Part shown: piece after piece, positions 1 to 54,045 of the stretch
How positions within the stretch are numbered: the first letter of the stretch is position 1
Layout of the letters: each line of letters opens with the position of its first letter
Source: Rhodopseudomonas infernalis
Lineage (GTDB): Bacteria; Pseudomonadota; Alphaproteobacteria; Rhizobiales; Xanthobacteraceae
Length of the DNA stretch: 64,000 bases
Assembly (NCBI RefSeq): GCF_022271405.1
Contig: NZ_JAJNAL010000006.1
Span: forward strand, 62,001-126,000
Direction of reading: 5' to 3'
Notes under the pieces: generated by a model
The model's database searches: none
What the model saw: only the letters and a program-made list of their open reading frames with translations
What the model was told of the DNA's origin: nothing
Program-made: the position numbers and the translations under genes

Positions 1-1
1 C

Positions 2-1180
2 AATATCGATCGGCTCAATGCGGGAATGAAGCAGGCGTCGCTCGCGGCGCTGGTCGCGACGATGCCGGAGAACGTCACCTATGCGAGCGGGTTCTGGGCG
101 ATGAGCCAGTGGATCCGCCGCGGCCCGCAGGCTTACGCGCTGCTGCCGGCGCCGGGCAGCGGCGAGCCGGCGGTGATCGCCTCGACCGGCCTGATCGATC
201 TGGTCGCCGACGCCGAAGTCTGGGTGAAGGACATTCGCCGCTTCGGCGGATTTTCGGTGAACAAGACGGAGGGCGTGGAGCTCGAGCCGCATGATCAGCG
301 CATCGACGCCTTGCTGGCGCAGCAGGACGACGGCGACGCCGTCAAGGCGCTGGTCAAGGTGATCAAGGATCGCGGGCTGCAGAACGCGCGCATCGGCGTC
401 GACGAAATCGGCATCCTGCCGCAATATTGGGATCAGCTCGCCGAGGCGCTGCCGGGCGCGACGCTGGTGCGGGCGGCCGACATCTTCCGCTACGCGCGGG
501 CGATCAAGACGACGGAGGAGATCGTGCGGCTGCGCAAGTCCGCGCAGATCGCCGACATGTCGATCAGTGCGGCGCTCGCGGTCGCCAAAGTTGGTGCCAC
601 CGAGAACGATCTGGCGCGGGCGTTTCACACCAAGACCATCGTCGAGGGCGGAATGCCCGTGCTCGGCTGCATCGGCGTCGGCGCGCGCAGCGCCGGCACC
701 AATGTGCAGCCGACCGATCGCGAGCTGATCGCCGGCGACATCATCCGCTTCGACGTCGGCGGGCGCTACAAGCACTACCGCGCCGACATCGCGCGCAATG
801 GCGTGCTCGGCGAGCCGGACGCGAAGACCGTCAAGTATCATCGCGCGATCTGCGTCGGGCTCGACCGCGCCATCGAGATGATCAAGCCGGGCGTCAAGGC
901 CGCCGATGTGTTCAACGCGGCGGTGGAGACCGTGCGCCGCGAGGGCATTCCGCATTATCAGCGCAGCCATGTCGGTCACGGCATCGGGCTCGACGGCTAC
1001 GACGCGCCGAACATCGCGCCGTCCAGCAAGGACGTGTTCGAGGAGGGCATGGTGATCTGCGTGGAGACGCCGTACTACGAGATCGGCTATGCGGGCCTCC
1101 AGGTCGAGGACACGCTGGTTGTCACCAGGGACGGTGTGGATTCGTTCATGCTGTCCGACACGGCGCTGCGGGTGCTCTGA
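2..1180 (+). CDS. M24-family metallohydrolase (Xaa-Pro dipeptidase/ectoine-hydrolase-like), 5' truncated by window
   Basis: The reading frame is open to the window edge. The codons before the first ATG (position 26) read NIDRLNAGM, which fits the usual N-terminal helix of M24 proteins, so the true start lies upstream. An N-terminal creatinase-like domain is followed by the pita-bread fold. All five metal ligands of the family are visible: Asp in IIRFDVGG, Asp in YRADIAR, His in HVGHGIGLD, Glu in CVETPYYE and Glu in GLQVEDT. M24 members cleave X-Pro bonds or open cyclic amidine or amide substrates (creatinase, DoeA ectoine hydrolase). Its place at the head of a catabolic gene train, with the next gene overlapping by one base, favours a ring-opening or amide-hydrolysing role. 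The substrate is inferred, not shown. Confidence 0.9.
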   Translation, partial: NIDRLNAGMKQASLAALVATMPENVTYASGFWAMSQWIRRGPQAYALLPAPGSGEPAVIASTGLIDLVADAEVWVKDIRRFGGFSVNKTEGVELEPHDQRIDALLAQQDDGDAVKALVKVIKDRGLQNARIGVDEIGILPQYWDQLAEALPGATLVRAADIFRYARAIKTTEEIVRLRKSAQIADMSISAALAVAKVGATENDLARAFHTKTIVEGGMPVLGCIGVGARSAGTNVQPTDRELIAGDIIRFDVGGRYKHYRADIARNGVLGEPDAKTVKYHRAICVGLDRAIEMIKPGVKAADVFNAAVETVRREGIPHYQRSHVGHGIGLDGYDAPNIAPSSKDVFEEGMVICVETPYYEIGYAGLQVEDTLVVTRDGVDSFMLSDTALRVL

Positions 1181-2442
1181 TGGCGAAGGTCAAAGGGCTG
1201 CAGTGCCTGCGCTGCGACGCCCTTTATCCCCCGGATCACTACGCCGACGACTGCCCGGTGTGCCGGCCGGTGGTGCGGAGCAATCTGGTGGTCGCCTATG
1301 ATCAGCCGATCGCCTTGCGCAAGCCGGGCGCGGCCGGCGCCGGGCTGTCGACCGGGCTGTGGCGCTACGGCGACGTGCTGCCGGTGAGCGAGGCTGAAGC
1401 CGTGTCGCTCGGCGAGGGCGGCTCGCCTCTGCATCATCTGCGGAACGTTGGTGAGCAGCTCGGCCTCAAGCAACTCTACGGCAAGGACGAGAGCGGCAAT
1501 CCGACCTGGTCGTTCAAGGATCGTCTCGCCTGCATGGCGGTGTCGGTCGCCAAGCAGATGGGCGCCAGGACCATCGTGTCGAGTTCCTCTGGCAACGCCG
1601 GCGCGGCCGCCGCCGCTTATGCGGCGAAGGCCGGCATTCCCTGCGTCGTCTTCACGTTCGGCTGGGCTGCCGGGCCGATGGTGACGCAGATGCGCGCCTA
1701 CGGCGCCAAGGTCGTCACCGTGCCGGAAAAGGAAGACCGCTGGCGGTTCATGGAACACGCCGTGAGGCAGTATGGCTGGTTCCCGACCTCGCCGTTCTTC
1801 GGCCCCGCGGTCGGCTCCAACCCTTACGGCATCGAGGGCTACAAGACGCTGGCCTACGAAACCGTGGAGCAGCTCGGCTGGCGCGCGCCGGATTGGTGCA
1901 TCCTGCCGGTGTGCTACGGCGACGCCCTGATCGGGATGTGGCGCGGTTTCAGCGAGATGATGGCGGCGGGCTGGATCGACCGCATGCCGAAGATGGTCGC
2001 GGCGGAAGTCTACGGCTCGATCGGCCAGGCCATTGACCACGACCTCGAAGCGCCGCCAGCAATGCCCAAGACATTCGATACGGTGTCGGGTTCGATCGGC
2101 GCAGTGCAGGGGACCTATCAGGCGCTGCAGATCGTGAGGACGTCTCAGGGCCGCGCCGTGACGATCTCGAACGATGATACGATGCGCTGGCAGCAGCTTC
2201 TGGCAGCTCGCGAAGGTCGCTATCTTGAGCCGGCTTCTGCCGGAGGGCTGGTTGCGGTCGAGCGATTGGTCAGAGCGGGCGTGATCAAGAGCGATGACAC
2301 TGTCGTCTCGCTTCTCACGGCGTCCGGGTTGAAAGACCCGGCGGTCACCGCGGCGACGCAGGGTGACACGATTCAGGTGCCGTCGGATCTTCCGACGGCC
2401 ACGCAAATCCTGCAGTCCGCGGGAGTGTTTCCGATCATCTGA
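1180..2442 (+). CDS. Threonine-synthase-like PLP enzyme with N-terminal zinc ribbon
   Basis: This is a 420-residue fold-type II PLP enzyme. It begins with a zinc ribbon (Cys9, Cys12, Cys25, Cys28), as in the class of threonine synthases that carry such a domain. The PLP lysine is expected at Lys113 in SFKDR, and the phosphate-binding loop is SSSSGNAGA. The start ATG overlaps the previous stop (TGATG). Threonine synthase catalyses replacement or elimination on O-phosphohomoserine, and relatives act as ammonia-lyases or beta-eliminating enzymes. No other threonine-pathway gene is nearby, and every neighbour belongs to a catabolic and transport train. A lyase acting on an amino-acid-like intermediate of that pathway is therefore more likely than biosynthetic threonine synthase. 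Confidence 0.85.
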   Translation: MAKVKGLQCLRCDALYPPDHYADDCPVCRPVVRSNLVVAYDQPIALRKPGAAGAGLSTGLWRYGDVLPVSEAEAVSLGEGGSPLHHLRNVGEQLGLKQLYGKDESGNPTWSFKDRLACMAVSVAKQMGARTIVSSSSGNAGAAAAAYAAKAGIPCVVFTFGWAAGPMVTQMRAYGAKVVTVPEKEDRWRFMEHAVRQYGWFPTSPFFGPAVGSNPYGIEGYKTLAYETVEQLGWRAPDWCILPVCYGDALIGMWRGFSEMMAAGWIDRMPKMVAAEVYGSIGQAIDHDLEAPPAMPKTFDTVSGSIGAVQGTYQALQIVRTSQGRAVTISNDDTMRWQQLLAAREGRYLEPASAGGLVAVERLVRAGVIKSDDTVVSLLTASGLKDPAVTAATQGDTIQVPSDLPTATQILQSAGVFPII

Positions 2443-2451
2443 GGGGGCGAG

Positions 2452-3417
2452 GTGAAGATGCATATGAAGTCGAAAATCATCGGAGCTGTTGGTCTGGTCA
2501 TCGCAGCGCTGCTGCCGCAAGCCGCGGCCGCGGAGTATCCCGACAAGCCGATCACGCTGATCGTGCCGTGGGCCGCCGGCGGCAGCACGGACCAGACCGC
2601 GCGCGTACTGGCCAAAGCGGCCGAGGCCTCGCTCGGCCAGACCATCGTGGTGATCAACCAGCCGGGCGCCTCGACCTCGATCGGCATGGCCGCGCTCGCC
2701 AAGGCCGCACCGGACGGCTACACCATCGGCACGCTGTCGAGCACCAGCTATCTGGCCGCGCTGCAGGGTCGGCAGCTGCCGTTCGACCCGATCAACGCGT
2801 TTTCGTACATCAGTTACTATGGCGACAATCTGATCGGCATCGCCGTGAAGGCCGATGCGCGCTGGAAGACGATCGACGATCTGATCGCCGAGGGCAAGGC
2901 GAAGCCGGGCGCGATCAAGTACGGCACCGCCGGCGTCGGCACGACCCAGCATCTCACCAGCGAAGCGCTGCAATTCGCCACCAAGGCGAAGTTCGTCCAT
3001 GTGCCGCAGCAGGGCTCCGCCGCTTCGGTGCCGGCGCTGCTCGGTGGCCATGTCGACTTCATCATGGAGACGTCGGTCTGGGCTCCCTTTATTGAGAGCA
3101 AGGAGGTGCGGCTGCTGGCGGTGACCACGCCGCAGCGCTCCAAGATGTATCCGGACGTTCCCAGCCTGTCCGAGAAGGGCCTCAAGTCGCTGCGCTCGGT
3201 TCAGGCGATCATCGGGCCGGCCGGGATTCCGGAGAACGTCCGCATGAAGCTTGAAACCGCGTTCCGCAAGGCGATGAGCGACAAGGCTTTCCAGGACACG
3301 ATGGACCGGCTCGGCATGGTGCCGCTCGACCTGCCGGGCGCCGAGGTCAAGAAGCTGGTCGAAGGCGAGTACAATTCGGCGCGTGAGATCCTGCAGGAAA
3401 TCGGCAAGGCCAAATGA
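2452..3417 (+). CDS. Tripartite tricarboxylate transporter substrate-binding protein (TctC/Bug family)
   Basis: This periplasmic solute receptor is about 320 residues long and starts with a Sec signal peptide (hydrophobic stretch ending PQAAAA, mature protein from EYPDKP). The Bug-family opening EYPDKPITLIVPWAAGG and the later ADGYTIG-like segment match the family. Such receptors bind carboxylates or other small organics and feed a TctAB membrane carrier, which follows at once. The start is uncertain: GTG at 2452, ATG at 2458 and ATG at 2464 are in frame. The GAGG at 2449-2452 gives ATG 2458 a good spacing. The gene overlaps tctB by four bases. Confidence 0.93.
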   Translation: MKMHMKSKIIGAVGLVIAALLPQAAAAEYPDKPITLIVPWAAGGSTDQTARVLAKAAEASLGQTIVVINQPGASTSIGMAALAKAAPDGYTIGTLSSTSYLAALQGRQLPFDPINAFSYISYYGDNLIGIAVKADARWKTIDDLIAEGKAKPGAIKYGTAGVGTTQHLTSEALQFATKAKFVHVPQQGSAASVPALLGGHVDFIMETSVWAPFIESKEVRLLAVTTPQRSKMYPDVPSLSEKGLKSLRSVQAIIGPAGIPENVRMKLETAFRKAMSDKAFQDTMDRLGMVPLDLPGAEVKKLVEGEYNSAREILQEIGKAK

Positions 3418-3866
3418 GCGGCCCTGTCGCCATGGTACGGCTCACCACGCCGACCTACGTCGCCGTCCTGATGCTGCTGGTGCTGGCGCTGACCTTCGGG
3501 CTCGGCGCCTTCCGCCTCGGCTTCTGGGTCGACGACGCGCCGGGCCCGGGCGTGCTGCCGCTGGCGGTGTCGATCGCGCTGCTGGTCCTGTTGGTCCTGG
3601 TCGTGCGTGAGCCGCTGCCGGCGGATGAGAGCGCGTTCGCGCTCGCACCGGCCGCGGCGATCCTGGCGACGATCGTTTACGCGATCGTCGTTCCCTACAC
3701 CGGCTTCGTGATCGCGACGCTGGCGCTGCTGATCGTCTGGATTCGCGGCTTCTATCGCCAGAGCATGCTGCGCGCCGTCGTCGCCGGCGTCGGGCTGACC
3801 GCCAGCGGGCTCGTGATCTTCCCGTTGCTGCTCAAGGTGCCGATGCAATTGGGGCCCGCCTGGTAA
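3414..3866 (+). CDS. Tripartite tricarboxylate transporter small membrane subunit (TctB family)
   Basis: This 150-residue hydrophobic protein has four predicted membrane segments and the short length and position typical of TctB. It overlaps tctC by ATGA and its stop overlaps the tctA start (TAATG), so all three transporter genes look translationally coupled. It forms the inner-membrane carrier together with the large subunit, probably cation-driven as in the known TctCBA system. Confidence 0.88.
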   Translation: MSGPVAMVRLTTPTYVAVLMLLVLALTFGLGAFRLGFWVDDAPGPGVLPLAVSIALLVLLVLVVREPLPADESAFALAPAAAILATIVYAIVVPYTGFVIATLALLIVWIRGFYRQSMLRAVVAGVGLTASGLVIFPLLLKVPMQLGPAW

Positions 3867-5377
3867 TGTTCGAAGCCCTCGAAAAACTCGGCTACGGAAT
3901 CTCGCTGTCGCTCGAGCCGTCGAACCTGCTGTATGCGGCGATCGGCTCGGTGCTCGGCACACTCGTCGGGGTGCTGCCCGGGCTCGGCCCGGTGACGACC
4001 ATCGCGGTGCTGCTGCCGCTCACCTATCACGCCGGCTCGCCGCTCGGCGCCATCATCATGCTGGCCTCGATCTATTACGGCGCGATGTATGGCGGGTCGA
4101 CCACCTCGATCCTGCTCAAGGTGCCGGGCGAAGCCGCCTCGGTGATTACTTGCATCGACGGCTACCAGATGGCCAAGAAGGGCCGCGCCGGTCCGGCGCT
4201 GGCGATCGCAGCGATCGGCTCGTTCATCGCCGGCACCGTCGCGGTGTGTGCGCTGGCGCTGGTCGGTCCGCTGTTCGCCAAATTCGCGGTTACGTTCGGA
4301 CCGCCCGAGTATTTCGCGCTGGCGTTGTTCGGATTGTCGCTGAGTGCGACGCTATCCGGCGGCTCACCGGTGCGTGGCATCACCATGGTGCTGGTCGGGC
4401 TGCTGCTCGGCCTGGTCGGTATCGACACCATCACCGGCGTCGAGCGCTACACCTTCAACATCATGGCGATCACCGACGGCATCGATCTGGTGCCGATGCT
4501 GATGGGGCTGTTCGGCGTCGCCGAGATCCTGCACAATCTCGAGGACAAGTCGCGCGGTTCGCTGCTGTCGACCAAGATCGGCCGGCTGTTTCCGAGCCGT
4601 CAGGATTGGAGCGAGTCCGCCGGTCCGATCGCGCGCGGCTCGGTGATCGGATTCTTCGTCGGCCTGATCCCCGGCGGCGGTGCCATCCTGGCGTCGCTGA
4701 TGAGCTACACGCTGGAGAAGAAGCTGTCGAAGACGCCGGAGCAGTTCGGCCACGGCGCCATCGCCGGCGTCGCCGGACCCGAGTCAGCCAACAATTCGGC
4801 GGCGACGGCCTCGTTCATTCCGCTGCTGACGCTCGGCCTGCCGGGCAATGCGGTGACCGCTGTGCTGTTCGCGGGCCTGCTGATCCAGAACGTGCAGCCA
4901 GGTCCGCTGATGCTGGTGAAGAATCCCGACGTGTTCTGGGGCGTGATCGCGTCGATGTATGTCGGCAACATCATGTTGCTGGTGCTCAATCTGCCGCTGG
5001 TCGGGCTGTGGGTGCAGCTGCTGCGCGTGCCATCCTGGCTGCTCAGCGCCACCATCCTGCTGATCGCGATCTTCGGCACTTACAGCCTGCGCAGCAATTT
5101 CGCCGACGTGACGACGCTGATGCTGTTCGGCGGCATTGGCTATCTGCTGCGCAAGGCCAGCCTCGACGCCGGTCCGCTGATCATGGCGTTCATCCTCGCC
5201 AACATCCTCGACACCGCGCTGCGGCAGTCGATGCTGATGGGCGACGGCAGCCTGATGATCGTGCTGCAGCGGCCGCTGTCGCTGACCATCCTGACGGTCG
5301 CAATGCTCATCCTGGTGGGGCAGCTGTGGTCGTATTTCGGCCGCACCCGCGTCCGCACCGTGCCGTCGGAGAGCTGA
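3866..5377 (+). CDS. Tripartite tricarboxylate transporter large membrane subunit (TctA family)
   Basis: At 503 residues the protein is full length for TctA, with about ten to twelve membrane segments. It has the family glycine-rich motifs LPGLGPVTT near residue 37, YGGSTTSILLKVPGE near residues 73-87, and GLIPGGGAILASL near residue 265. This is the main transmembrane carrier of the TctCBA uptake system. The molybdenum hydroxylase large subunit starts two bases after its stop, which ties uptake to the enzymes downstream. Confidence 0.95.
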   Translation: MFEALEKLGYGISLSLEPSNLLYAAIGSVLGTLVGVLPGLGPVTTIAVLLPLTYHAGSPLGAIIMLASIYYGAMYGGSTTSILLKVPGEAASVITCIDGYQMAKKGRAGPALAIAAIGSFIAGTVAVCALALVGPLFAKFAVTFGPPEYFALALFGLSLSATLSGGSPVRGITMVLVGLLLGLVGIDTITGVERYTFNIMAITDGIDLVPMLMGLFGVAEILHNLEDKSRGSLLSTKIGRLFPSRQDWSESAGPIARGSVIGFFVGLIPGGGAILASLMSYTLEKKLSKTPEQFGHGAIAGVAGPESANNSAATASFIPLLTLGLPGNAVTAVLFAGLLIQNVQPGPLMLVKNPDVFWGVIASMYVGNIMLLVLNLPLVGLWVQLLRVPSWLLSATILLIAIFGTYSLRSNFADVTTLMLFGGIGYLLRKASLDAGPLIMAFILANILDTALRQSMLMGDGSLMIVLQRPLSLTILTVAMLILVGQLWSYFGRTRVRTVPSES

Positions 5378-5378
5378 G

Positions 5379-7646
5379 ATGACCGCCGCGGAGCGTCCCG
5401 ATCGCGTCGACTTCCTCGACAAGGTGACCGGCCGCGCCGCGTTCATCTCCGATCTGGCCGTCCCCGGCATGGTCCACGGCAAGGTGCTGCGTAGCACGAT
5501 GCCGCATGCGCGGATCGTAAGCATCGACATCGACGCCGCGCTTGCGATGCCGGGCGTGATCGCCGTCGTCACCGGCGCGGATTTCGGCGGCATCGACCCG
5601 ATCTGGGGCGTATCGCTGAAGGATCGGCCGCTGATCGCGATGGACCGCGTCCGCTATGTCGGCGAGCCGGTTGCCGTGGTGGTGGCCGAGACCGAAGCCG
5701 CCGCCGAGGAGGCGCTCGACGCGGTGATAGTCGACTACGACCCGCTGCCCTACGTCACCGAGGCGGCTGAGGCCCTGGCGCCGGATGCACCGCTGCTGCA
5801 CGACGCGGTCCAGCCGCTGAAGGACTTCTACTTCAAGGGCGAAGCCAAGCCGGTCCCCGGCACCAACATCTTCCAGTCCTACGCCTACGACACCGGCGAC
5901 GTCGAAGCGGCGTTCGCCTCGGCCGACCGCGTGTTCGAGGACAGCTTCGACTTCCCGATGGTCTATCACTACGCGATGGAGCCGCATTGCGGCATCGCGT
6001 CGTTCGGCGACGACGGCCTGACGGTGTGGAGCTGCGGCCAGGCTCCGACCGCGGTGCAGAAGGTGTTGTCGCGGATCTTCAATTTGCCGATCGCCAGGGT
6101 GCGGATCATCACGCCGCTGATCGGCGGCGGCTTCGGCGGCAAGGCCTCGGTCAAGATCGATCCGCTGGTTGCCACGGTGGCGTGGAAGGTCGGGCGCCCG
6201 GTGCGGATCTGTTTTTCGGCCTCCGAGTCGATGCTGACGGCGCGGCGGCTCAGTGCGACGATCAGCGTCAAGACCGCGGTCAGCGCCGACGGCATGCTGC
6301 AGGCGAAGTCGGTCGACGTGCTGATGAACGGCGGCGCCTATGCCGACACCGGACCGGCGGTGGCGATCAAGGCGGCGATCCGCGCGATCGGTCCGTACAA
6401 GATCCCGAACCTGCGGCTTCGCAGCACGGCGGTCTACACCAACACTGTGCCGGGCGCGGCATTTCGCTCGATCGGCGGCCCGCAGGGCGTGTGGGCGACC
6501 GAGTCCCAGATGGATATCATCGCCGAGGCACTCGGCATCGATCCGACCGAGCTGCGCTATCGCAATATGCTCAAGCGCGGCGAGCACGTCCGGCCTGATC
6601 TGACGCCGATCGACGTGGATATGGCGGAGGCGATGGGGCTGGCGTCGCAGGCGATGAGCCGGCTCGACGCACAGCATCCGCAAGCCCGGATGATCCACGG
6701 CACCGCGCTCGGCGTCGCCGACCCGGCGAACTCGCCGGTGGCCGGCGTGCTGCTGCGGCTGAAGATCGACGGCTCGATCGCGGTGATTTCATCGAGCATC
6801 GAGGTCGGGCAGGGCATTCGCGAGGTGCTGTGCCGCGTCGCCGCCGAGCAACTCAACCAGCCGGTTGCCATGGTCAGCGCGCTGACGCCGGATAGCGCCA
6901 TCGCGCCGTTCGACTGGGGCACCGGCGCCAGCCGCTCATCGCTGATGATGGCGCTGGCGATCGAGGACGCCGCCGCCGACATCAAGGCGCAGATCGGCGA
7001 CATCGCGGCGTCGACGCTCAATCTCGATCCGGCCGGCATCGCGCTGGTCGCGGGCGGCTTCACCGCGGCCGGCAAGCGCTACAGCTTCGCCGATCTGCTG
7101 CATGCTTACGTCGGCATCGACAGCGGCGAACTGATTGGCATCGGCCGGATCTCGCCGCGGTCGCGCGGCGGCGCGCTCGCCAGGGCACCGCTGTTCTGGG
7201 AAACCGCTGCCGGGCGCTGCGGCATCACGCTCGACGAGGACACCGGCGAGATCGCGGTGAAGCGCTATGTCAGCGTCGCCGACATCGGCCGCGCCATCAA
7301 TCGCAGCGGCGCCGAAGGTCAGGACGAAGGCGCCGCGATCATGGGCCTCGGCCACGCGCTATTCGAAGAACTGATCTACGCGGACGGCCAGCCGGTCAAC
7401 GGCACCATGATCGATTATCACGTCCCCACCATCGACGACGTGCCCGAGCAGTTCGAGACCGTGCTGATCGAAAACGGCGGCGGCCCCGGACCGGGCGGCA
7501 TGCGCGGCATGGGCGAGGGCGCAATCTTGCCGATCGCGCCGGCGATCGCCAATGCGCTGGCCACCGGCTTCGGCATCCGCGTCAAGCAGCTGCCGCTGAC
7601 GCCGGAGCGTGTCTGGCGCGCGCTGAAGGACAAGAAGGACAGCTGA
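5379..7646 (+). CDS. Molybdenum hydroxylase large subunit (xanthine dehydrogenase/CoxL family)
   Basis: This 755-residue molybdopterin-cytosine-dinucleotide type subunit has the N-terminal 'hammerhead' domain (about residues 10-120) followed by the cofactor-binding region. GGGFGGK lies near residues 248-254, AAFRSIGGPQ near 365, and the C-terminal GMGEGAILP segment holds the expected catalytic glutamate. The loop that defines true aerobic CO dehydrogenase (AYRCSFR) is absent and AAFRSIG stands in its place. It is therefore a hydroxylase of a carbon centre, probably next to nitrogen in a ring, not a CO oxidiser. It forms a complex with the FAD and 2Fe-2S subunits encoded downstream. The exact substrate cannot be read from the sequence. 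Confidence 0.93.
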   Translation: MTAAERPDRVDFLDKVTGRAAFISDLAVPGMVHGKVLRSTMPHARIVSIDIDAALAMPGVIAVVTGADFGGIDPIWGVSLKDRPLIAMDRVRYVGEPVAVVVAETEAAAEEALDAVIVDYDPLPYVTEAAEALAPDAPLLHDAVQPLKDFYFKGEAKPVPGTNIFQSYAYDTGDVEAAFASADRVFEDSFDFPMVYHYAMEPHCGIASFGDDGLTVWSCGQAPTAVQKVLSRIFNLPIARVRIITPLIGGGFGGKASVKIDPLVATVAWKVGRPVRICFSASESMLTARRLSATISVKTAVSADGMLQAKSVDVLMNGGAYADTGPAVAIKAAIRAIGPYKIPNLRLRSTAVYTNTVPGAAFRSIGGPQGVWATESQMDIIAEALGIDPTELRYRNMLKRGEHVRPDLTPIDVDMAEAMGLASQAMSRLDAQHPQARMIHGTALGVADPANSPVAGVLLRLKIDGSIAVISSSIEVGQGIREVLCRVAAEQLNQPVAMVSALTPDSAIAPFDWGTGASRSSLMMALAIEDAAADIKAQIGDIAASTLNLDPAGIALVAGGFTAAGKRYSFADLLHAYVGIDSGELIGIGRISPRSRGGALARAPLFWETAAGRCGITLDEDTGEIAVKRYVSVADIGRAINRSGAEGQDEGAAIMGLGHALFEELIYADGQPVNGTMIDYHVPTIDDVPEQFETVLIENGGGPGPGGMRGMGEGAILPIAPAIANALATGFGIRVKQLPLTPERVWRALKDKKDS

Positions 7647-7647
7647 G

Positions 7648-8100
7648 ATGGAATTCCGCATGGAGGCCGATCTGCCCTGCGCGCCCGACCGGCTGTGGCC
7701 GATCATGCTCGACATCCGGGAGATGGCCGGCTGCATCCCGGGCATCGAGACGATCGAAGAGAAGGAGCGGCTCAGAGCCTATTCGGCGCTGATGAAGCAG
7801 AAGATCGGGCCGTTCAAGCTGGAGGTGCCGGCCGAGATCGTGGTCGAGGACTATCGCGAGCTCGAATTCGTGATCGCGCAGGCAACCGGCCGGGACAAGT
7901 TCACCGGTACGACGCTGCGCGTCAATTTCGACCTGCGGCTCGAGGCGGTTGAAGCGCAGCTGACGCGGCTGGCGGTGACGGCCGATCTGCAAATCGCCGG
8001 CCGACTGGCGTCGCTCGGTCACTCGATGATCAAGAAGAAGGCGCAGGAGAACTTCGCCGAATTCGAAACCAATTTCCGCAAGCGGCTGGAAGAGATCTGA
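7648..8100 (+). CDS. CoxG-like SRPBCC protein
   Basis: The protein has 150 residues and an SRPBCC/CoxG fold. It opens with MEFRMEADLPCAPDRLWPIM, typical of the family, and contains the conserved DIREMAGCIPGIE stretch. CoxG-type proteins accompany molybdenum hydroxylases; in CO dehydrogenase systems CoxG anchors the enzyme to the membrane, and others may help assembly or substrate handling. It sits inside the hydroxylase gene set, one base after the large subunit and two before the FAD subunit. Confidence 0.85.
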   Translation: MEFRMEADLPCAPDRLWPIMLDIREMAGCIPGIETIEEKERLRAYSALMKQKIGPFKLEVPAEIVVEDYRELEFVIAQATGRDKFTGTTLRVNFDLRLEAVEAQLTRLAVTADLQIAGRLASLGHSMIKKKAQENFAEFETNFRKRLEEI

Positions 8101-8102
8101 TC

Positions 8103-8966
8103 GTGCGACTGGCCCCGTTCCAATTGCATCGTCCGAACGAGCTGCAAGCTGCACTGGCGCTGCGCGAAAAATTCGGCGACGACAGCGCTTACTACGCGGG
8201 CGGGACGGAGCTGCTGCTGGCGCTCAAGGCGCGTGTGCTGCGCTATGACCATCTGATCGATCTGAAGCGGATCGCCGGGTTCGACCGGCTCGCCCTCGAC
8301 GGCAACGAAGTGGTGATCGGGCCGCTGGTGACGCATCTGCGGCTGGCCACCGATCCGCTGATCCGCGACCGGCTTCCCGCTTATGCGAAGCTCGCCGACA
8401 ACGTCGGCAACATTCGCGTGCGGGCATCGGGCACGCTCGCCGGCAATCTTTGTTTCTCCGAGCCGCACGCCGATCCGCCGGCGCTGCTCTGCCTGCTCGG
8501 CGCAACGCTGATGTTGCACGGGCCGGACGGCGAGCGCAGCGTGCCGATGGCCGAATTCATCCTCGGCCCGTTCACCACCGCGCGCGCCGACGACGAGATC
8601 CTCACCGCGATCCGCATTCCGCTGCCGGCCGCGGATGAGCGGATCTGCTATCGCAGCTTCGGTCATCTCGAATATCCCGCCGTCGGCGTGGCGGCGTCGT
8701 ATCGCGCGCAGGCGAAAGGGCGCTACCGCGTCTGGATCGGCTGCATCGGCGACAATCCCATCCAAGCCGAAGCGGTCGAGGCCGCGCTCGACGGCGTGCC
8801 GCCCGGTGCGTTGTCCGACGTTCTGCCGCAAGCGGCCGATGCGATGGCGGCGGACCTGCCGGCCACCGACGACATCTACGGCAGCGCCGACTACAAGCGG
8901 CATCTCGCCGCCGTTTTTATCAAGCGCGCGGTGCTGGAAAGCGCCGGCGTCGAGGCAGGGCGCTGA
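8103..8966 (+). CDS. Molybdenum hydroxylase FAD-binding medium subunit (CoxM/XDH-B type)
   Basis: This 287-residue protein begins at GTG. The FAD-binding PCMH-type region includes AYYAGGTELL near the N-terminus (family AGGxxLL) and the conserved VGNIRVRASGTLAGNLCFSE segment, normally TIGGN(I/L). A C-terminal CO-dehydrogenase flavoprotein domain follows. It passes electrons from the iron-sulfur subunit to an acceptor. It lies between the CoxG-like gene and the 2Fe-2S subunit with gaps of one or two bases. Confidence 0.92.
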   Translation: MRLAPFQLHRPNELQAALALREKFGDDSAYYAGGTELLLALKARVLRYDHLIDLKRIAGFDRLALDGNEVVIGPLVTHLRLATDPLIRDRLPAYAKLADNVGNIRVRASGTLAGNLCFSEPHADPPALLCLLGATLMLHGPDGERSVPMAEFILGPFTTARADDEILTAIRIPLPAADERICYRSFGHLEYPAVGVAASYRAQAKGRYRVWIGCIGDNPIQAEAVEAALDGVPPGALSDVLPQAADAMAADLPATDDIYGSADYKRHLAAVFIKRAVLESAGVEAGR

Positions 8967-8967
8967 C

Positions 8968-9435
8968 ATGGCCGATTCCGCTTCGCTCGACATATCCTTC
9001 ACACTGAACGGCGCGCCGCAAACCCGTACGGTGGCGGCGTTCGCGTTGCTGATCGATTTCCTGCGCGACGATCTGGCGCTGACCGGCACCAAGCGCTCCT
9101 GCGACGTGCAGGTGTGCGGCGCCTGCACGGTGCTGGTCGATGGCCTGCCGGTGAGCAGCTGCACGTCGCTCGCCGCCGACATCGACGGCAAATCGGTCAT
9201 CACGGTCGAAGGCCTGGCGCAGCACGGCGAGCTTAGCCCGGTGCAGCAGGCGTTCGTCGATCACGCGGCGATGCAGTGCGGGTTCTGCACGCCGGGTATG
9301 GTGCTGGCGACGACGGCTTTGCTGGAGAGCCATCCGCATCCGACCGAGCAGGAGATCCGTCACTATCTGCGCGGCAACATCTGCCGCTGCACCGGCTACA
9401 TCAAGATTCTCGAAGCGGTGAAAAGCCTTGTCTGA
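8968..9435 (+). CDS. Molybdenum hydroxylase 2Fe-2S small subunit (CoxS type)
   Basis: The 155-residue subunit carries two [2Fe-2S] clusters. The plant-type cluster uses Cys45, Cys50, Cys53 and Cys65 (motif CDVQVCGAC...C). The second, helical cluster uses Cys104, Cys107, Cys139 and Cys141 (QCGFC and ICRC). Length and spacing are normal. The start is ATG 8968, one base after the FAD subunit stop; a longer upstream frame has no support. With the large and medium subunits it completes a three-subunit hydroxylase. Confidence 0.95.
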   Translation: MADSASLDISFTLNGAPQTRTVAAFALLIDFLRDDLALTGTKRSCDVQVCGACTVLVDGLPVSSCTSLAADIDGKSVITVEGLAQHGELSPVQQAFVDHAAMQCGFCTPGMVLATTALLESHPHPTEQEIRHYLRGNICRCTGYIKILEAVKSLV

Positions 9436-10381
9436 GCTCTCCATCTCCAGCGACGGCCGCGACGATCCGGCCGTGTTTCGTGACAAGGTCGCGGCCGGCG
9501 AGGCCGGCGGTGCCGACACGATCTGGATCGCCAACCATCTTTTTCTGCGCGATCCGTCCGTGCTCGGTGCACTCACGCTGTCGGAGACGCAGCGTCTCAA
9601 AGTGGCGCTGATGGCGGTGAGCCCGCTCACTCAGCATCCGGTGCAGATCGCCATGGCGACGGCGACGCTGGCGGAGCGCTTCCCGGGGCGGGTCAAGCTG
9701 TGCCTCGGCGTCGGCGCGCCGGCCGATCTCTCGGCGATCGGCGTCGACGGCGCCAAGCCGCTGCGGGCGATGCGCGAGGCACTGCAGCTGGTCCGCGCGC
9801 TCCTATCCGGCGAGAGCGTGACGTTTCAGGGCGAGAGCTTTCGTGTCGATCGTCGCCGGCTTGCGGCCGCGGCGGCCCACATTCCGATCGTGCTGGCGGC
9901 GTCCGGGCCGCAGATGCTCGAGCTCGCCGGCGCCGAAGCCGACGGCGTGCTGATCAGCGCCGGAGCGTCGGTGCCGTTCGTGCAGCAGACGCTGGGCAGC
10001 GTCGCGCGCGGCGCCAAGGGTCGCAAGGTCAAGACCTCGGGTCTGGTCTATGCGTCGGTCGATGCCGAGGAGCAGCGCGCCAACGACCGCGTCCGCCGCA
10101 TCCTGGCGATCCTGCTGCGCGGCGCGCACCATAAGGCCAATCTCGATCTCGCCGGCAGTGTGCTGGACCAGAGCGCGCTCAACGCCGCCGTGGTGGCGGA
10201 GGATTGGAGCCGCGCCGAGGCGTTGATCGGCGACGACATCGTCGCGCGCCACGCGGCCAGCGGCACGCCCGAGCAGTTGCGCCGCCGGCTCGCCGAGTAT
10301 CACGCCTCCGGCCTCGACGAGATCGTCATCGCCGGGGTGCGAGACGGCGCCCAGATCAAAGCCATCCTAAAATCGTCATGA
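9428..10381 (+). CDS. LLM-class oxidoreductase, probably F420-dependent (Mer-like)
   Basis: The protein has 317 residues and the luciferase-like (bacterial luciferase/LLM) fold. It starts at TTG and overlaps the end of the 2Fe-2S subunit gene. Family features visible are GGADTIWIANH near the N-terminus, the ERFPGRVKLCLGVG segment, and IPIVLAASGPQMLELAG in the middle. LLM enzymes use F420 or FMN. Linkage to F420 biosynthesis genes and to an F420 reductase argues for F420, as in methylenetetrahydromethanopterin reductase (Mer) and related F420 enzymes. A two-component FMN monooxygenase is the alternative, because a flavin reductase lies two genes on. Confidence 0.85.
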   Translation: MSELSISSDGRDDPAVFRDKVAAGEAGGADTIWIANHLFLRDPSVLGALTLSETQRLKVALMAVSPLTQHPVQIAMATATLAERFPGRVKLCLGVGAPADLSAIGVDGAKPLRAMREALQLVRALLSGESVTFQGESFRVDRRRLAAAAAHIPIVLAASGPQMLELAGAEADGVLISAGASVPFVQQTLGSVARGAKGRKVKTSGLVYASVDAEEQRANDRVRRILAILLRGAHHKANLDLAGSVLDQSALNAAVVAEDWSRAEALIGDDIVARHAASGTPEQLRRRLAEYHASGLDEIVIAGVRDGAQIKAILKSS

Positions 10382-10389
10382 GGAAACGC

Positions 10390-11397
10390 ATGAAGTTCAG
10401 TGTCTGTCTATCGACCGGTTTCGAAGGCGTGATGTATCCGATCCCGTTCGCGCGACCCGAGGATTTCATCGCCCAGGCGCAGCTCTGCGAACGGCTCGGT
10501 TACGATTCGGTGTGGGGCAACGATCACATCACCACGCAGAACTACGTCCGCGACCTGTTTCCCGGCAAGCCGCCGAATTTCTACGAGCCGCTGATCGTGC
10601 TGGCCGCGATCGCCGGCGCCACCAAGACCATCAAGCTCGGCACCGCGCTGACCGTGTTGCCGATGCGCGATCCGGTGTATCTCGCCAAGCAGGCGATCTC
10701 TCTCGACCAGATGTCCAACGGCCGCTTCATCATGGCGGTCGGGCTCGGCGCGTATCGCGAAGAGTTTCTCGCCTGGGGCGGATCGCGCGCCGCCAAGGCG
10801 CGGCGCGGCGACATGATGGACGAGGGGCTGAAGGCGCTCGACATGCTGTTCACCGAGCCGAGCGCCAGCCACGAGGGCGCTTACTACTCGTTCAAGGACG
10901 TCGAGATGTTCCCGAAGAGCAGGGCGCAGCCGTTCCCGCTGTACATCGGCGGACACAATCTCGAAGCGATCGAGCGCGCCGCGCGCTACGGCCAGGGCTG
11001 GCTGCCGGGCTGGCGGCCGCTCACCGAAATGGAGCAGCGCATCAAGGATCTCAAGGCGCGGGCGGCCGAGCTCGGCCGCGATCCGGACTCGATCGAGATC
11101 GCCCCGCAGTTTTCCTGCACCATCGCCAAGACGATGGAAGAGGCCGAGAAGCGCTATATGGAGAGCGGTCTGGTCGCGCACCGCGTGTCGCTCGCCTACA
11201 CCGGCCGCGACCTCAGCCATCAGGTCGTCGCCAATCTGGTCGGCTCGCCCGACGTCATCCTCGAGAAGATCGAGAAGCTGCGCGCGATCGGCATCCAGCA
11301 TTGCAGCGCGCTGATGTTCCCGGCCGACACGGTCGAGGAGATGAACGAGCAGATCGAATGGTTCGGCACCGAGGTGATGGCCAAGGTGCCGGCATGA
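10390..11397 (+). CDS. LLM-class oxidoreductase, probably F420-dependent (second copy)
   Basis: This 335-residue LLM-fold protein is distinct from its neighbour. It shows GYDSVWGNDHI near the N-terminus, TIKLGTALTVLP, the GRFIMAVGLGAYREEF motif of F420/FMN LLM enzymes, and PFPLYIGGHNLEAIERAARY. ATG 10390 was chosen because GAGG at 10380-10383 lies six bases upstream; an in-frame ATG at 10378 overlaps the previous stop. Two different LLM enzymes in one train suggest two redox steps on the same substrate, or one F420H2-dependent reduction and one oxygenation. Confidence 0.88.
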   Translation: MKFSVCLSTGFEGVMYPIPFARPEDFIAQAQLCERLGYDSVWGNDHITTQNYVRDLFPGKPPNFYEPLIVLAAIAGATKTIKLGTALTVLPMRDPVYLAKQAISLDQMSNGRFIMAVGLGAYREEFLAWGGSRAAKARRGDMMDEGLKALDMLFTEPSASHEGAYYSFKDVEMFPKSRAQPFPLYIGGHNLEAIERAARYGQGWLPGWRPLTEMEQRIKDLKARAAELGRDPDSIEIAPQFSCTIAKTMEEAEKRYMESGLVAHRVSLAYTGRDLSHQVVANLVGSPDVILEKIEKLRAIGIQHCSALMFPADTVEEMNEQIEWFGTEVMAKVPA

Positions 11398-12026
11398 GCG
11401 ATCCGGCGGCAGGCGCGGCAGACGAGCAGCGGTTCGATCAGATCGATCTCGCCGCGCTCAGCCGCGCCGACCGCTACAAGATGCTGACCGGCGCGGTGAT
11501 CCCGCGGCCGATCGCGTTCGTCACCTCGCTCGGCCCGGGCGACATCGTCAACGCCGCGCCGTTCAGTCAATTCGTGATCCTCGCGGTCGATCCTGGCCTG
11601 CTCGGATTTTCGGTCGGGCCGCGCACCGGCAGCGACGCCGCCAAGGACACGCTCGCCAATGTGCAGCGCACCGGCGAGTTCGTGATCAACATGGTGCCGG
11701 AGGGCTGGGAAGAGATCGTCCAGCAGGCGAGCGAGGAGTATCCGCCGGATGTCAGCGAGGTCGATCTGCTCGGCTTCACGACGCTGCCGTCGTGCCACAT
11801 CCGGACGCCGCGGCTCGCCGGCAGCAAGATCCAGTTCGAGTGCACGCTCGACCAGGTACTGACCTTCGGCGACGCGCCCAACCATCTGGTGGTGGGACGG
11901 ATCGTCGACATGCACGTCGCCGCAGGGCTGACGCAGAACCACAAGATCGATCCCAGGGCCTATGCCCCGGTCGCCCGCATCGGCGGCCGCAACTACGTGC
12001 GGCTCGGCGACATCGTCGGGGTGTAA
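11394..12026 (+). CDS. Flavin reductase-like FMN-binding protein
   Basis: The 210-residue protein has a flavin-reductase-like domain (DIM6/NTAB type). It has the family opening with YKMLTGAVIPRPIAFVTS and then NAAPFSQFVILAVDPGLLGFS, which forms the FMN pocket. It overlaps the previous gene by ATGA. Members reduce FMN for partner monooxygenases or act directly on flavin-like substrates. Here it could supply FMNH2 to one of the two LLM proteins. It is followed by a 45-base gap, the largest inside the train. Confidence 0.85.
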   Translation: MSDPAAGAADEQRFDQIDLAALSRADRYKMLTGAVIPRPIAFVTSLGPGDIVNAAPFSQFVILAVDPGLLGFSVGPRTGSDAAKDTLANVQRTGEFVINMVPEGWEEIVQQASEEYPPDVSEVDLLGFTTLPSCHIRTPRLAGSKIQFECTLDQVLTFGDAPNHLVVGRIVDMHVAAGLTQNHKIDPRAYAPVARIGGRNYVRLGDIVGV

Positions 12027-12071
12027 AGGCCGGCGCAGCCTGCGCTGCCGGCGTCAAGAACAGAGGATGCC

Positions 12072-12737
12072 ATGACTACAAAAACTCATACGATCTGTGT
12101 CGTCGGCGGCACCGGCGCCGAAGGCGGCGGCCTGGCGCTGCGCTGGGCCAAGCACGGCCACCGCGTGATCATCGCCTCGCGCGACGCCGCGAAGGCCAAG
12201 GCGGCGGCCGACGAACTCAATGCCCGGCTCGGCAGCGGCACAGCGGAAGGCGCCGACAGCGCGACCGGCGTCGCGCAGGCCGATATCGTGGTGCTGACCG
12301 TGCCGTACCGGGCACAGATCGCGACCGTGCAGGGGCTGAAGGACGCGCTGCAGGGCAAGATCCTGGTCGACGTCACGGTGCCGCTGGTGCCGCCGAAGGT
12401 CACGCGGGTGCAATTGCCGGAAACCGATTCCTGCGTCGTCGCGGTGCAGACGCTGCTCGGTGAGGGCGTGCGGGTGGTGTCGGCGTTCCAGAACGTGTCG
12501 GCCCACAAGCTCAAGGACCCGGACTACGCCATCGATTGCGACGTGCTGGTTGCCGGCGACGACAAGGAGGCGCGCGCCACCGTGATGCAGCTTGCCGTCG
12601 ACGCCGGGCTGCGCGGCATCGACATCGGGCCGCTGGCGAATTCGGTGGTGTCGGAGAGCCTCACTTCGGCGCTGATCTGGATCAACAAGTTCTATAAGAT
12701 TCCCGACGCGGGAGTGCGGATCACCGGCCTCCCCTGA
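12072..12737 (+). CDS. npdG: NADPH-dependent F420 reductase (F420H2:NADP oxidoreductase, NpdG-like)
   Basis: At 221 residues this is normal length for the F420:NADP oxidoreductase family. The N-terminal Rossmann motif reads VVGGTGAEGGGLA, and IIASRD follows the second strand, consistent with NADP binding through the Arg/Ser pair. The central SAFQNVSAHKL segment is characteristic of the family. The enzyme regenerates F420H2 from NADPH, which would power the LLM reductases upstream. It lies directly before the F420 biosynthesis genes cofE and cofD, a strong functional link. Confidence 0.9.
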   Translation: MTTKTHTICVVGGTGAEGGGLALRWAKHGHRVIIASRDAAKAKAAADELNARLGSGTAEGADSATGVAQADIVVLTVPYRAQIATVQGLKDALQGKILVDVTVPLVPPKVTRVQLPETDSCVVAVQTLLGEGVRVVSAFQNVSAHKLKDPDYAIDCDVLVAGDDKEARATVMQLAVDAGLRGIDIGPLANSVVSESLTSALIWINKFYKIPDAGVRITGLP

Positions 12738-12748
12738 GGAGGGCCATC

Positions 12749-13504
12749 TTGGTCAGACGTGCTGTCGAGCTTTATGCCGTAGAGGGGCTGCCCATGGTGG
12801 CCCCGGGTGATGACCTCGCGGGTCTGATCCTGGAGTCATTGACGTCGGCCGAGGCGCGGCTGCAAGACGGCGACATCGTCGTCATCGCCCAGAAGGTGGT
12901 GTCCAAGGCCGAGGGCCGCAGCGTCGATCTGGCGGCGGTGACGCCGTCACCGCGCGCCGTCGAGATCGCCGCGCAGGCGCATAAGGATCCGCGCGTCGTC
13001 GAACTGATCCTTGCGGAGTCGAGCGAGGTGCTGCGCGTTCGGCCGGGCGTGATCATCGTCGAGCATCGGTTGGGCCTGGTGCTCGCCAATGCCGGCATCG
13101 ACCGCTCCAATGTCGAAGGCGAGGCCGCGCTGCTGCTGCCGCTTGATCCCGACGCTTCGGCCGAACAAATCCGCGCGCGGCTGGTCGCCGAAACCGGCGC
13201 GGCGGTCGGCGTGATGATCATCGACAGCATCGGCCGCGCCTGGCGCAACGGCACGATCGGCACCACGATCGGCGCAAGCGGCATCGTCACGATGAGCGAC
13301 CTGCGCGGTCAGCCCGACCTGTTCGGCCGCAAGCTCGAAACCACCGAGGTCGGCGCCGCCGACGAAGTCGCGGCAGCCGCATCGCTGGTGATGGGTCAGG
13401 CCGCCGAGGCCACGCCAGTGGTGGTGGTCCGCGGGATCGATCTCGCCGGCTCCGGCACCGCGCGTGATCTGTTGCGGCCAAAGCGCATGGATATGTTCAG
13501 ATGA
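12749..13504 (+). CDS. cofE: Coenzyme F420-0:L-glutamate ligase
   Basis: The 251-residue protein starts at TTG with GAGGAGGG twelve bases upstream. It has the CofE opening VEGLPMVAPGDDLAGLI, then LQDGDIVVIAQKVVSKAEGR, and the conserved metal/GTP region IIDSIGRAWRNGTIGTTIG. The enzyme adds gamma-linked glutamate to F420-0 using GTP. This is the short, single-domain form; the C-terminal reductase domain of actinobacterial FbiB is absent. It overlaps cofD by four bases. CofC/FbiD and the deazaflavin synthase CofGH/FbiC are not in this window and must be encoded elsewhere if F420 is made. Confidence 0.93.
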   Translation: MVRRAVELYAVEGLPMVAPGDDLAGLILESLTSAEARLQDGDIVVIAQKVVSKAEGRSVDLAAVTPSPRAVEIAAQAHKDPRVVELILAESSEVLRVRPGVIIVEHRLGLVLANAGIDRSNVEGEAALLLPLDPDASAEQIRARLVAETGAAVGVMIIDSIGRAWRNGTIGTTIGASGIVTMSDLRGQPDLFGRKLETTEVGAADEVAAAASLVMGQAAEATPVVVVRGIDLAGSGTARDLLRPKRMDMFR

Positions 13505-14490
13505 CCACGACCGCAGCGAACGATCGCATCATTGCGTTGGCCGGCGGTGTCGGCGGCGCCAAGCTGGCCGACGGCCTGTCGCATCTGCTTGGCGACAAGC
13601 TCACCGTCGTCGTCAACACCGGCGATGATTTCGAGCACCTCGGATTTCACATCAGCCCCGATCTCGACACGGTCACCTACACGCTCGGCGGCGTCGCCAA
13701 CAGCCAGCAGGGCTGGGGGCTCGAAGGCGAAACGTGGCGCTTCATGGAGCAGCTGGCGCGGCTCGGCGGGCCGGCCTGGTTCAAGCTCGGCGACCGCGAT
13801 CTCGCGACGCATGCCTACCGGACCAATCGGCTCCGCGAGGGCGCGACGCTGACCGAAGTTACCGCCGAGCTGAGTGCCGCACTCGGCGTCACCTCGCGCC
13901 TGCTCCCGATGTCGGACGATGCGGTGCGGACCGTGATCCACAGCGGCGGCCGCAGTATCGCCTTTCAGGAATATTTCGTCCGGCTGGCCTGCGGCGTCCC
14001 GGTCGATCGCATCGCGTTTGCCGGCGCCGCGGCAGCGCAGCTCAATCCTGCGATCGGCGCGCTGCCTCGGCCGGCGGCCGTGATCATCTGCCCGTCGAAT
14101 CCCTATCTCAGCATCGATCCGATCCTGGCAGTGCCCGGCGCCCGGGATTGGCTGAAGGGGCTCGGCGTGCCGATCGTGGTGGTGTCGCCGATCGTCGGCG
14201 GCGCTGCCATCAAGGGCCCGGCGGCCAAGATCATGCAGGAGCTCGACGCGCCGGTGTCGGCGCTCGGCGTCGCTGCGCATTATCAAGGTCTCGCCGACGG
14301 CATCGTCATCGACAGCTGCGATGAAGCGCTGGCGCCGGAGATCGCCGCGCTCGGCATCGCCGTTCACGTGGTGCCGACCGTGATGCGCTCGAAGGCCGAT
14401 CGGGTGGAGTTGGCCGGCAGTTGCCTTGCCTTCGCCCGCACGCTGCCCCGAACACCCGGTGCGGAAGCGGCCCCGGCCTCGACCAAATAG
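13501..14490 (+). CDS. cofD: 2-phospho-L-lactate (or phosphoenolpyruvate) transferase for F420 synthesis
   Basis: The 329-residue CofD/FbiA family protein opens with IIALAGGVGGAKLADGL. NTGDDFEHLGFHISPDLDTV follows, the signature of the Fo-binding region, and VIICPSNPYLSIDPIL and SPIVGGAAIKGPAAKI lie later. It transfers the lactyl- or pyruvyl-phosphate moiety to Fo to give F420-0 or its dehydro form. The start ATG overlaps the cofE stop. It is the last gene of the packed train. The following 85 bases lead to an IclR regulator on the same strand. Confidence 0.94.
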   Translation: MTTTAANDRIIALAGGVGGAKLADGLSHLLGDKLTVVVNTGDDFEHLGFHISPDLDTVTYTLGGVANSQQGWGLEGETWRFMEQLARLGGPAWFKLGDRDLATHAYRTNRLREGATLTEVTAELSAALGVTSRLLPMSDDAVRTVIHSGGRSIAFQEYFVRLACGVPVDRIAFAGAAAAQLNPAIGALPRPAAVIICPSNPYLSIDPILAVPGARDWLKGLGVPIVVVSPIVGGAAIKGPAAKIMQELDAPVSALGVAAHYQGLADGIVIDSCDEALAPEIAALGIAVHVVPTVMRSKADRVELAGSCLAFARTLPRTPGAEAAPASTK

Positions 14491-14575
14491 GCTTTGAAAT
14501 GATCCCGGCAACCGAGTATCCGCATCGCTCGTCGAAGCGGCTGGATCGCGGGCGCGGCAACCGTTTGTCACGGGG

Positions 14576-15364: not shown

Positions 15365-15662
15365 CGACCCGGTTGCGGTCCTTTCCGCGAGTCGGACACT
15401 GCGGCCCGTGTGGGCGCTCGCAGTTTGAGCGAAGCGCATCCGGCGTCGACGACGGACCTTCTTCGATCAGGCGTGAGTTTTCGACCTTCCTGAAATGTCG
15501 CCATGACGGCCATGCGCATCAAGGCCAGTGCGGGCAGGTGGCGTCTTTGGTCGGCTGGCGCGAGTTCCATGCTGGGAATGCCGCAATTTCGGCTCGGCAT
15601 TGCCGCGTTTGTCGGATGTCCATTTCTCCGAACGTCTGTGCTAGACGGTCCGCGGTGGAGAA

Positions 15663-52250: not shown

Positions 52251-52299
52251 CAGAATAACCTCGCGTGTAACTAACGTCCCGGGGGGTGCACGGTCTCGG

Positions 52300-53982: not shown

Positions 53983-54045
53983 CGCGAAATCTCCAAAGAT
54001 GCGGGAGCAGGAGCGTTCCGGCGCGATGCCGGAACGCGTCCGAAC

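Follow-up and report, generated by a model that had tools for sequence, protein, structure and literature searches.

We analysed a 64,000-nucleotide stretch of the Rhodopseudomonas infernalis genome (the window; G000:C56:62001-126000, part of a 5.5 Mb genome), at the start of which a train of fifteen genes makes up the latter half of an island of 29 genes that spans about 30.6 kb and carries 28 of them on one strand. With a probability of about 0.55, the island makes coenzyme F420 together with the enzymes that spend F420 to catabolize an N-heterocyclic or cyclic-amide compound. The existence of an F420-linked catabolic island, as claimed in the original prediction from the window alone, is well founded because the F420 pathway is complete, the gene block is conserved and its presence tracks F420 synthesis. 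What is new is the combination of parts in such an island, and the genomic evidence for the F420 link is strong. No description of the cluster was found in the open-access literature among the matches listed, subscription papers being outside the scope of that search.

The train runs on the forward strand from the gene of an M24 family metallohydrolase (M24a, window positions 2..1180; PF00557 2.1e-41, PF01321) to that of a pyridoxal-phosphate (PLP) fold-type II enzyme, which is threonine-synthase-like, belongs to a separate subfamily and carries the motif NPTWSFKDR (1180..2442; PF00291 7.8e-70). These are followed by the TctCBA uptake genes, encoding the solute-binding protein TctC (2452..3417; PF03401 5.1e-61), the small membrane protein TctB (3414..3866; PF07331 4.5e-14) and the large membrane protein TctA (3866..5377; PF01970 6.3e-155). 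A molybdenum (Mo) hydroxylase is encoded next, with a large subunit (CoxL) of the xanthine-oxidase type (5379..7646; PF02738, PF20256, PF01315), a CoxG-like protein (7648..8100; PF06240 2e-13), a CoxM-like subunit for flavin adenine dinucleotide (FAD; 8103..8966; PF00941 7.2e-43, PF03450) and a CoxS-like 2Fe-2S subunit (8968..9435; PF01799 1.5e-33, PF00111). Two luciferase-family (LLM) proteins come after the hydroxylase: LLM1 (9428..10381), which is Mer-like and probably an F420-dependent oxidoreductase, and LLM2 (10378..11397; PF00296; TIGR03619 195 vs 166.9 bits), an oxidoreductase with flavin mononucleotide (FMN) or F420 as its cofactor. The train closes with a flavin reductase-like protein (11394..12026; PF01613 3.1e-23; no NCBIfam match), the NADPH:F420 reductase (FNO, npdG; 12072..12737; TIGR01915 195 bits, cut-off 149.8), the F420-0:glutamate ligase CofE (12749..13504; TIGR01916 293 bits, cut-off 180.7) and the 2-phospholactate transferase CofD (13501..14490; TIGR01819 281 bits, cut-off 257.5). 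The successive intergenic gaps from the M24 gene to cofD are -1, 9, -4, -1, 1, 1, 2, 1, -8, -4, -4, 45, 11 and -4 bp. Families were assigned with Pfam profiles for all train genes, and NCBIfam curated cut-offs were applied to ten proteins; together with the coordinates, these bear out the fifteen same-strand genes and the families first named for them. The M24 gene is present as predicted and its start, previously placed inside the window, is an ATG about 20 bp earlier (at L002 19482, with the window starting at L002 19502).

The upstream half of the island was read from L002 (C56:42500-62200). Towards the window it contains a second M24 gene (M24b, C56:46766-47953), a paralogue of LLM2 at 64% identity (about C56:47995-48993), an IclR gene on the minus strand (C56:49022-50023), an ABC transporter ATPase and permease, a second Mo hydroxylase (CoxM, S and L), an NMT1/THI5-type binding protein, the Mer-like protein LLM3 and a BhcC/D-threonine-aldolase-like protein whose BhcC score is below the cut-off. 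The two LLM genes originally described are thus those of the train, and the whole island holds four. The last two genes before the train encode FbiC, a fused CofG-CofH (C56:58768-61146; NF006687 1170 vs 1018 bits), and CofC (C56:61143-61742; TIGR03552 135.7 vs 105 bits). A lack of cofGH or cofC in the genome, named beforehand as refuting the original prediction, therefore does not apply: both lie just upstream of the train, and bacterial F420 biosynthesis is complete in the island, with CofGH, CofC, CofD and CofE each above the curated cut-off. In the assays described in the relevant part of PMC8764529, the Oligotropha CofC, like the others assayed there, preferred 2-phospholactate. A complete F420 pathway is also recorded for Rhizobiales isolates from forest soil, with no catabolic pathway attached to it in the corresponding passages of PMC5794936.

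A scan of species genomes with LLM1 returned 21 loci, of which 15 are relatives at 49-94% identity and six (L023-L028) are distant LLM matches without the block. LLM1 is 94% identical to a protein of Rhodopseudomonas palustris 2.1.18, and R. palustris strains are the nearest named relatives. The core of M24, PLP enzyme, LLM1 and LLM2 occurs together in 13 loci (G000, L008, L009, L010, L011, L012, L014, G121, G212, G117, G179, G076 and G113) from Rhodopseudomonas, Afipia, other Rhizobiales and one Betaproteobacterium, in a comparison that left out the neighbourhood of one close LLM1 (G036); a block that is not conserved, likewise named beforehand as a refuting condition, thus does not apply either. 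CoxL lies within the block in 12 of these 13 loci, and where a contig end interrupts the block (L013), CoxL through flavin reductase is retained. The position of the F420 genes varies. In Afipia massiliensis (L010) they lie downstream in the order FbiC, FNO, CofE, CofD, CofC; in G117, CofE, CofD and CofC come after LLM2, with FbiC and FNO about 22 kb further; and no cof gene is present in the stretch examined of L012, L013, L014, L017, L019 or L020, four of which (L013, L017, L019, L020) are short contigs or contig ends.

The presence of LLM1 was compared with that of CofH across genomes, in surveys that scored at most a few candidates per genome (five in the family and phylum surveys) and could therefore miss matches. 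CofH is above the cut-off in each of the 13 genomes behind L008-L020, including the six with no local cof gene. Within the family, CofH was found in 90 of 391 genomes, and every one of the 18 with a close LLM1 has it (E <= 1e-80, a threshold chosen after seeing the list; Fisher 7.9e-13); at the preset threshold of E <= 1e-30, cofH is present in 23 of the 25 LLM1 genomes. Within the genus, LLM1 and CofH occur in the same five of 16 genomes (p 2.3e-4), the other 11 being without both. Among PF00296 matches in these 16 genomes (E <= 1e-20), a band of island-type LLMs at E ~1e-49 to 1e-58, read off afterwards, comprises 22 matches, all in the five CofH genomes, and other LLM types occur in genomes both with and without CofH. 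Of 398 genomes across the phylum, six match cofH at E <= 1e-80 and four are above the cut-off; LLM1 (E <= 1e-40) was found in two, both among those four. The p-values overstate independence because the genomes are related, and the stronger evidence for the F420 link comes from loci whose cof genes lie far off or are missing locally, and from one genome outside the family (G539).

From the gene content we infer a possible route, including its substrate class and the order of its steps. TctCBA would import the compound and the Mo hydroxylase, where present, would put a carbonyl on the ring to give a lactam. With F420H2 produced from NADPH by FNO, the Mer-like LLM1 would pass a hydride to the ring at a C=N or C=C bond, and LLM2 would perform a second redox step, assisted by the flavin reductase should its cofactor be FMN. 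The saturated ring would then be opened by the M24 hydrolase, or by HyuAB, LamB/YcsF or an amidohydrolase in sister clusters, and the fold-type II PLP enzyme would eliminate ammonia or another group to leave a keto acid. The candidate substrates, weighed on chemical grounds alone, were oxazole, imidazole, hydantoin and lactam carboxylates, and the sequence favours none of them.

LLM1 and LLM3 are closest to Mer among solved sequences, and LLM1 has the Mer fold: among the top 1000 Foldseek chains, from which all fold rankings here were drawn, its top 13 rows ranked by fold are all F420 enzymes, and in Foldseek's own ranking chains 1-8 are Mer and mixed afterwards. In Mer, according to the structural account in part of PMC11094777, Glu6 is catalytic and Asp96 contacts the substrate in the C1-carrier site. 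In LLM1 the Glu6 position is Ser (profile alignment; window residue Ser7) and the Asp96 position is Ala, within a GvGaP stretch (count from the alignment by hand); for the position called Gln178 in that part of PMC11094777 no counterpart emerged from our numbering of the Mer alignment, and it played no part in the comparison. These two replacements rule out Mer itself as the identity of LLM1, whose score against the Mer model TIGR03555 is 121 bits with a cut-off of 348.7. Having the Mer fold without the catalytic Glu, LLM1 therefore probably binds F420 and acts on a substrate other than that of Mer.

The opposite direction of electron flow is unlikely, and it is the alternative that survives best. 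Here the LLMs would be F420-dependent dehydrogenases acting on a hydroxylated substrate, with FNO returning the electrons to NADP. The folds next best to Mer for LLM1 are indeed those of the dehydrogenases Adf and FGD, and hydroxy-acid chemistry is hinted at by an aldolase resembling BhcC and a regulator resembling BhcR, neither of which reaches its cut-off. Mer itself, however, is a reductase, and the sister clusters with HyuAB, YcsF or amidohydrolase suit a ring that is saturated ahead of hydrolysis.

A further alternative dispenses with F420 in the catabolic steps altogether: LLM1 and LLM2 would be FMN enzymes forming a two-component monooxygenase with the flavin reductase, of which RutA/RutF and TgnB/TgnA are examples, and the F420 genes would serve another role and be nearby by chance. 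In fold, LLM2 is best matched by luciferase and by SfnG and SsuD-type enzymes, RutA also being among the matches, and the flavin reductase gene (11394-12026) directly follows LLM2. This explanation is at odds with the F420 enzymes that fill the top fold rows of LLM1, with the presence of cofH in all 18 family genomes that have a close LLM1, even where local cof genes are missing, and with the failure to find island-type LLMs, LLM2 included, in the 11 genus genomes without cofH; we regard it as quite improbable for the pair. For LLM2 alone an FMN reading may hold. Its fold is slightly nearer the FMN monooxygenases, with Mer almost level, and F420, first assumed for LLM2, is one of two candidate cofactors. 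That the island builds a small molecule, employing F420 in the manner of streptomycete biosynthesis, is very improbable even with F420 reductases tied to antibiotic and secondary-metabolite biosynthesis in sections of PMC8498797, as among the 29 island genes scanned no ligase or synthetase besides CofE and no exporter is named, and its pair of uptake systems with binding proteins, together with its IclR regulators and hydrolases, is what catabolic loci typically contain.

Returning to reductive catabolism of a ring compound, the relatives of LLM1 also revealed a sister cluster type, in which a Liv-type ABC transporter and HyuA/HyuB (PF01968, PF02538; hydantoinase/oxoprolinase) accompany diverged LLM2 and LLM1, often with the PLP enzyme and in places with a threonine-aldolase-like lyase (PF01212). 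It was found in L016, L018, L022, G121, G212 and G182, and outside the family in G539, where HyuAB again occurs with LLMs. The cluster adjoins fbiC, in divergent orientation, in G121, G212 and L022, so two catabolic modules can share one F420 gene set. In L021, LLM2, FNO, RidA, the PLP enzyme and LLM1 are consecutive, with no HyuAB match.

Neighbourhoods of cofH were then considered in family genomes without a close LLM1. Twenty of 72 were taken in list order, one cofH per genome, with G066 (weak LLM1) and G112 (a cofH fragment that misses the cut-off) omitted. As controls, 20 stretches were picked by hand from these genomes, four of them from other contigs and two of reduced length (11.6 and 6.6 kb), for a total of 375 kb vs 381 kb. 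With island and HyuAB-type queries, LLM was found in 14 neighbourhoods vs 0 controls, CoxL in 9 vs 2 and FNO in 11 vs 0; ABC transporters, which are common genes, were found in 12 vs 7. When queries from L104 and L112 were added, cyclic-amide hydrolases (HyuAB, LamB/YcsF, amidohydrolase or M24) occurred in 12 vs 0, PLP fold II enzymes in 11 vs 0 and LLM in 15 vs 0, and LLM, Mo hydroxylase and hydrolase occurred together in 8 vs 0. A third island type emerged, with CoxLMS, LamB/YcsF (which we take to be the 5-oxoprolinase subunit A family), FNO, CofE, CofD, CofC, FbiC, a PF00291 protein, LLM, a Liv transporter and, by eye, two CoA-transferase-like subunits; it is represented by L104, L096, L098, L103, L108, L110, L111 and L113, not every part being present in each. 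Outside the family, an LLM, an amidohydrolase and an M20-type hydrolase are weakly matched near fbiC in G558, and G596 has LLM and FNO with no cyclic-amide hydrolase match. The recurring partners, namely Mo hydroxylase, LLM, four unrelated ring-hydrolase families, PLP fold II enzyme and uptake, fit a single chemistry in which a lactam is formed, a strong hydride donor saturates its ring, hydrolysis opens it and the resulting amino acid is cleaved. We tentatively propose, at somewhat less than even odds, that Proteobacteria of this group make F420 chiefly for a modular reductive N-heterocycle route that combines uptake, a Mo hydroxylase, Mer-like LLM enzymes, an exchangeable hydrolase and a fold-type II PLP enzyme, with cofactor synthesis in the same islands.

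Two observations from these neighbourhoods are recorded separately. In L112 the F420 genes lie beside three amidohydrolases (PF01979) and, by eye, an M20-like hydrolase, LLM, flavin reductase and NMT1-type transporter, possibly another F420-linked N-heterocycle cluster. Several LLM-like matches, many of them weak, crowd near fbiC in L141-L142 (G539, about C1:1239700-1251600) and in L106, which suggests local LLM expansion there.

Several results, with the FMN-type folds of LLM2 among them, weigh against a single F420-dependent route of this kind. Hydroxylation cannot be universal because G113 keeps the core with no Cox match in the 20 kb seen and L014, from a Betaproteobacteria metagenome-assembled genome, has CoxL with no CoxG, CoxM or CoxS match in the locus; Mo hydroxylation as an obligatory step, part of the original scheme, is not supported by these loci. 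The two LLM1 genomes with no cofH match at E <= 1e-30 are G023 (LLM1 31% identity) and G175 (36%, genome 69% complete). A close LLM1 is missing from 72 of the 90 cofH genomes of the family, so F420 must serve other purposes in them. For YcsF, the amidohydrolase, one PALP and two LLMs, the queries originate from L104 and L112, which are themselves among the 20 scored loci; excluding these self-matching loci, the hydrolase count is 10 of 18. Finally, the best match in the whole genome to SsnA, a uricolytic marker, reaches 152 bits with a cut-off of 455.5.

The enzymes of the train were examined for their motifs. CoxL has GMGEG, whose Glu we take to be catalytic, and AFRSIGG in place of any CSFR, presumably the CO dehydrogenase signature. 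With its Mo cofactor domains, FAD and 2Fe-2S subunits and the Glu in GMGEG, the enzyme has the features of the xanthine-oxidase type. CoxL reaches no NCBIfam equivalog cut-off (TIGR02416 279.6 vs 991 bits); thus, because GMGEG is present and CSFR absent, it is hydroxylase-like, and an aerobic CO dehydrogenase is ruled out by the missing CSFR and the TIGR02416 score. GMGEG was not seen in the L014 CoxL within the stretch translated. At L014 7733-10942, LLM1 directly follows CoxL; the small subunits may lie elsewhere, or the large subunit may have other partners. What we take to be the M24 metal-ligand motifs are retained in all six aligned sequences, and NPTWS(F/H)KDR is found in the PLP enzyme in six of six compared. 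The PLP enzyme is not the housekeeping threonine synthase: it scores 151.6 bits, below the thrC cut-off of 167.1, and a true thrC elsewhere in the genome, at C46, scores 268.5.

A sixteenth gene, 85 bp past cofD, encodes an IclR-family protein (14576..15364, plus strand; PF01614, PF09339; best NCBIfam match BhcR, 168.5 bits, cut-off 350), the probable regulator of the train. Immediately ahead of the M24 gene is an operator-like palindrome, ACGTTCCGAAAAACGGAACGT (C56:61952-61972), whose core pattern occurs twice in 83.5 kb. Among the relatives tried (L008-L012 and L014), the core is kept in L008, has one change in L009 and was not found with the core pattern in L010, L011, L012 or L014. We infer that the IclR protein binds this candidate operator, through which it would control the train. 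Gene spacing and this one operator-like palindrome point to co-transcription; a promoter and terminator scan of window positions 1-16000 gave no excess over shuffles.

Elsewhere in the window, a 342-aa frame just past the island (15663-16691) has, by eye, an RlpA-like part and then a thermonuclease-like part. On the minus strand at 50877-55353, genes judged by eye to encode an FAD-dependent oxidoreductase, an IlvD/Edd-like dehydratase and an MFS transporter are possibly a small catabolic set.

The recurring pairing of catabolic genes with F420 synthesis may account for F420 production in some Proteobacteria. If the proposed route is correct, F420-driven ring reduction would be a recurring catabolic strategy in Alphaproteobacteria, which might be put to use against N-heterocyclic pollutants, hydantoins and lactams among them, and might yield new reductases. 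The island offers named genes and a regulator with its candidate operator, and the 11 genomes of the genus that lack these genes can serve as natural negatives; Rhodopseudomonas palustris is easy to culture. According to the sections concerned of a 2021 review, experiments had by then addressed no F420-dependent enzyme from bacteria outside Actinobacteria, and the reason for F420 in Proteobacteria and Chloroflexi was listed as an open question (PMC8498797). At least one such structure, that of an F420-dependent dehydrogenase from Thermomicrobium (Chloroflexi), has since been solved (9hav).

The island can be set against four known systems. LLM1 and LLM3 resemble Mer in sequence, and LLM1 in fold too; LLM1 differs from it in the Ser and Ala that replace Glu6 and Asp96. 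With ectoine degradation (DoeA/EutD M24, EutB PLP) the island shares the pair of M24 and PLP fold II enzymes, whereas its family matches are weak in NCBIfam (M24 72-91 vs cut-offs 575-613; EutB 37-40 vs 413). The npdG-type F420 loci of actinobacteria degrade picrate and dinitrophenol. As in those loci, F420 genes adjoin catabolic genes and FNO (npdG) is present; by description, the island is set apart in uniting complete F420 synthesis with a Mo hydroxylase, M24, the PLP enzyme and transporters. The reductive uric acid (yanthine) pathway of E. coli and C. difficile, as outlined in parts of PMC12507026, combines a Mo enzyme, reductive dearomatization and hydrolases with YgeX, a PF00291 lyase acting on diaminopropionate, and in Chloroflexota uricolytic clusters a putative F420 luciferase-family (PF00296) enzyme is assigned to the dearomatization. 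The island is not a reductive uricolytic cluster proper, because no SsnA is above the cut-off; YgeW and YgeY were not among the island genes scanned, and no genome-wide search for them was made. In place of the HyuA (IPR011778) and YgeY families the island has M24, with HyuAB or YcsF in its sisters, and it has dedicated uptake and full F420 synthesis, whereas the part of PMC12507026 cited here concerns anaerobic bacteria. It shares with that pathway, as outlined there, its proposed logic of reductive dearomatization and cyclic-amide hydrolysis and overlapping enzyme classes, among them a xanthine-oxidase-type Mo enzyme and a PF00291 PLP enzyme. By analogy, the island may work like the reductive uric acid pathway on another substrate, in which case it would represent a parallel catabolic strategy.

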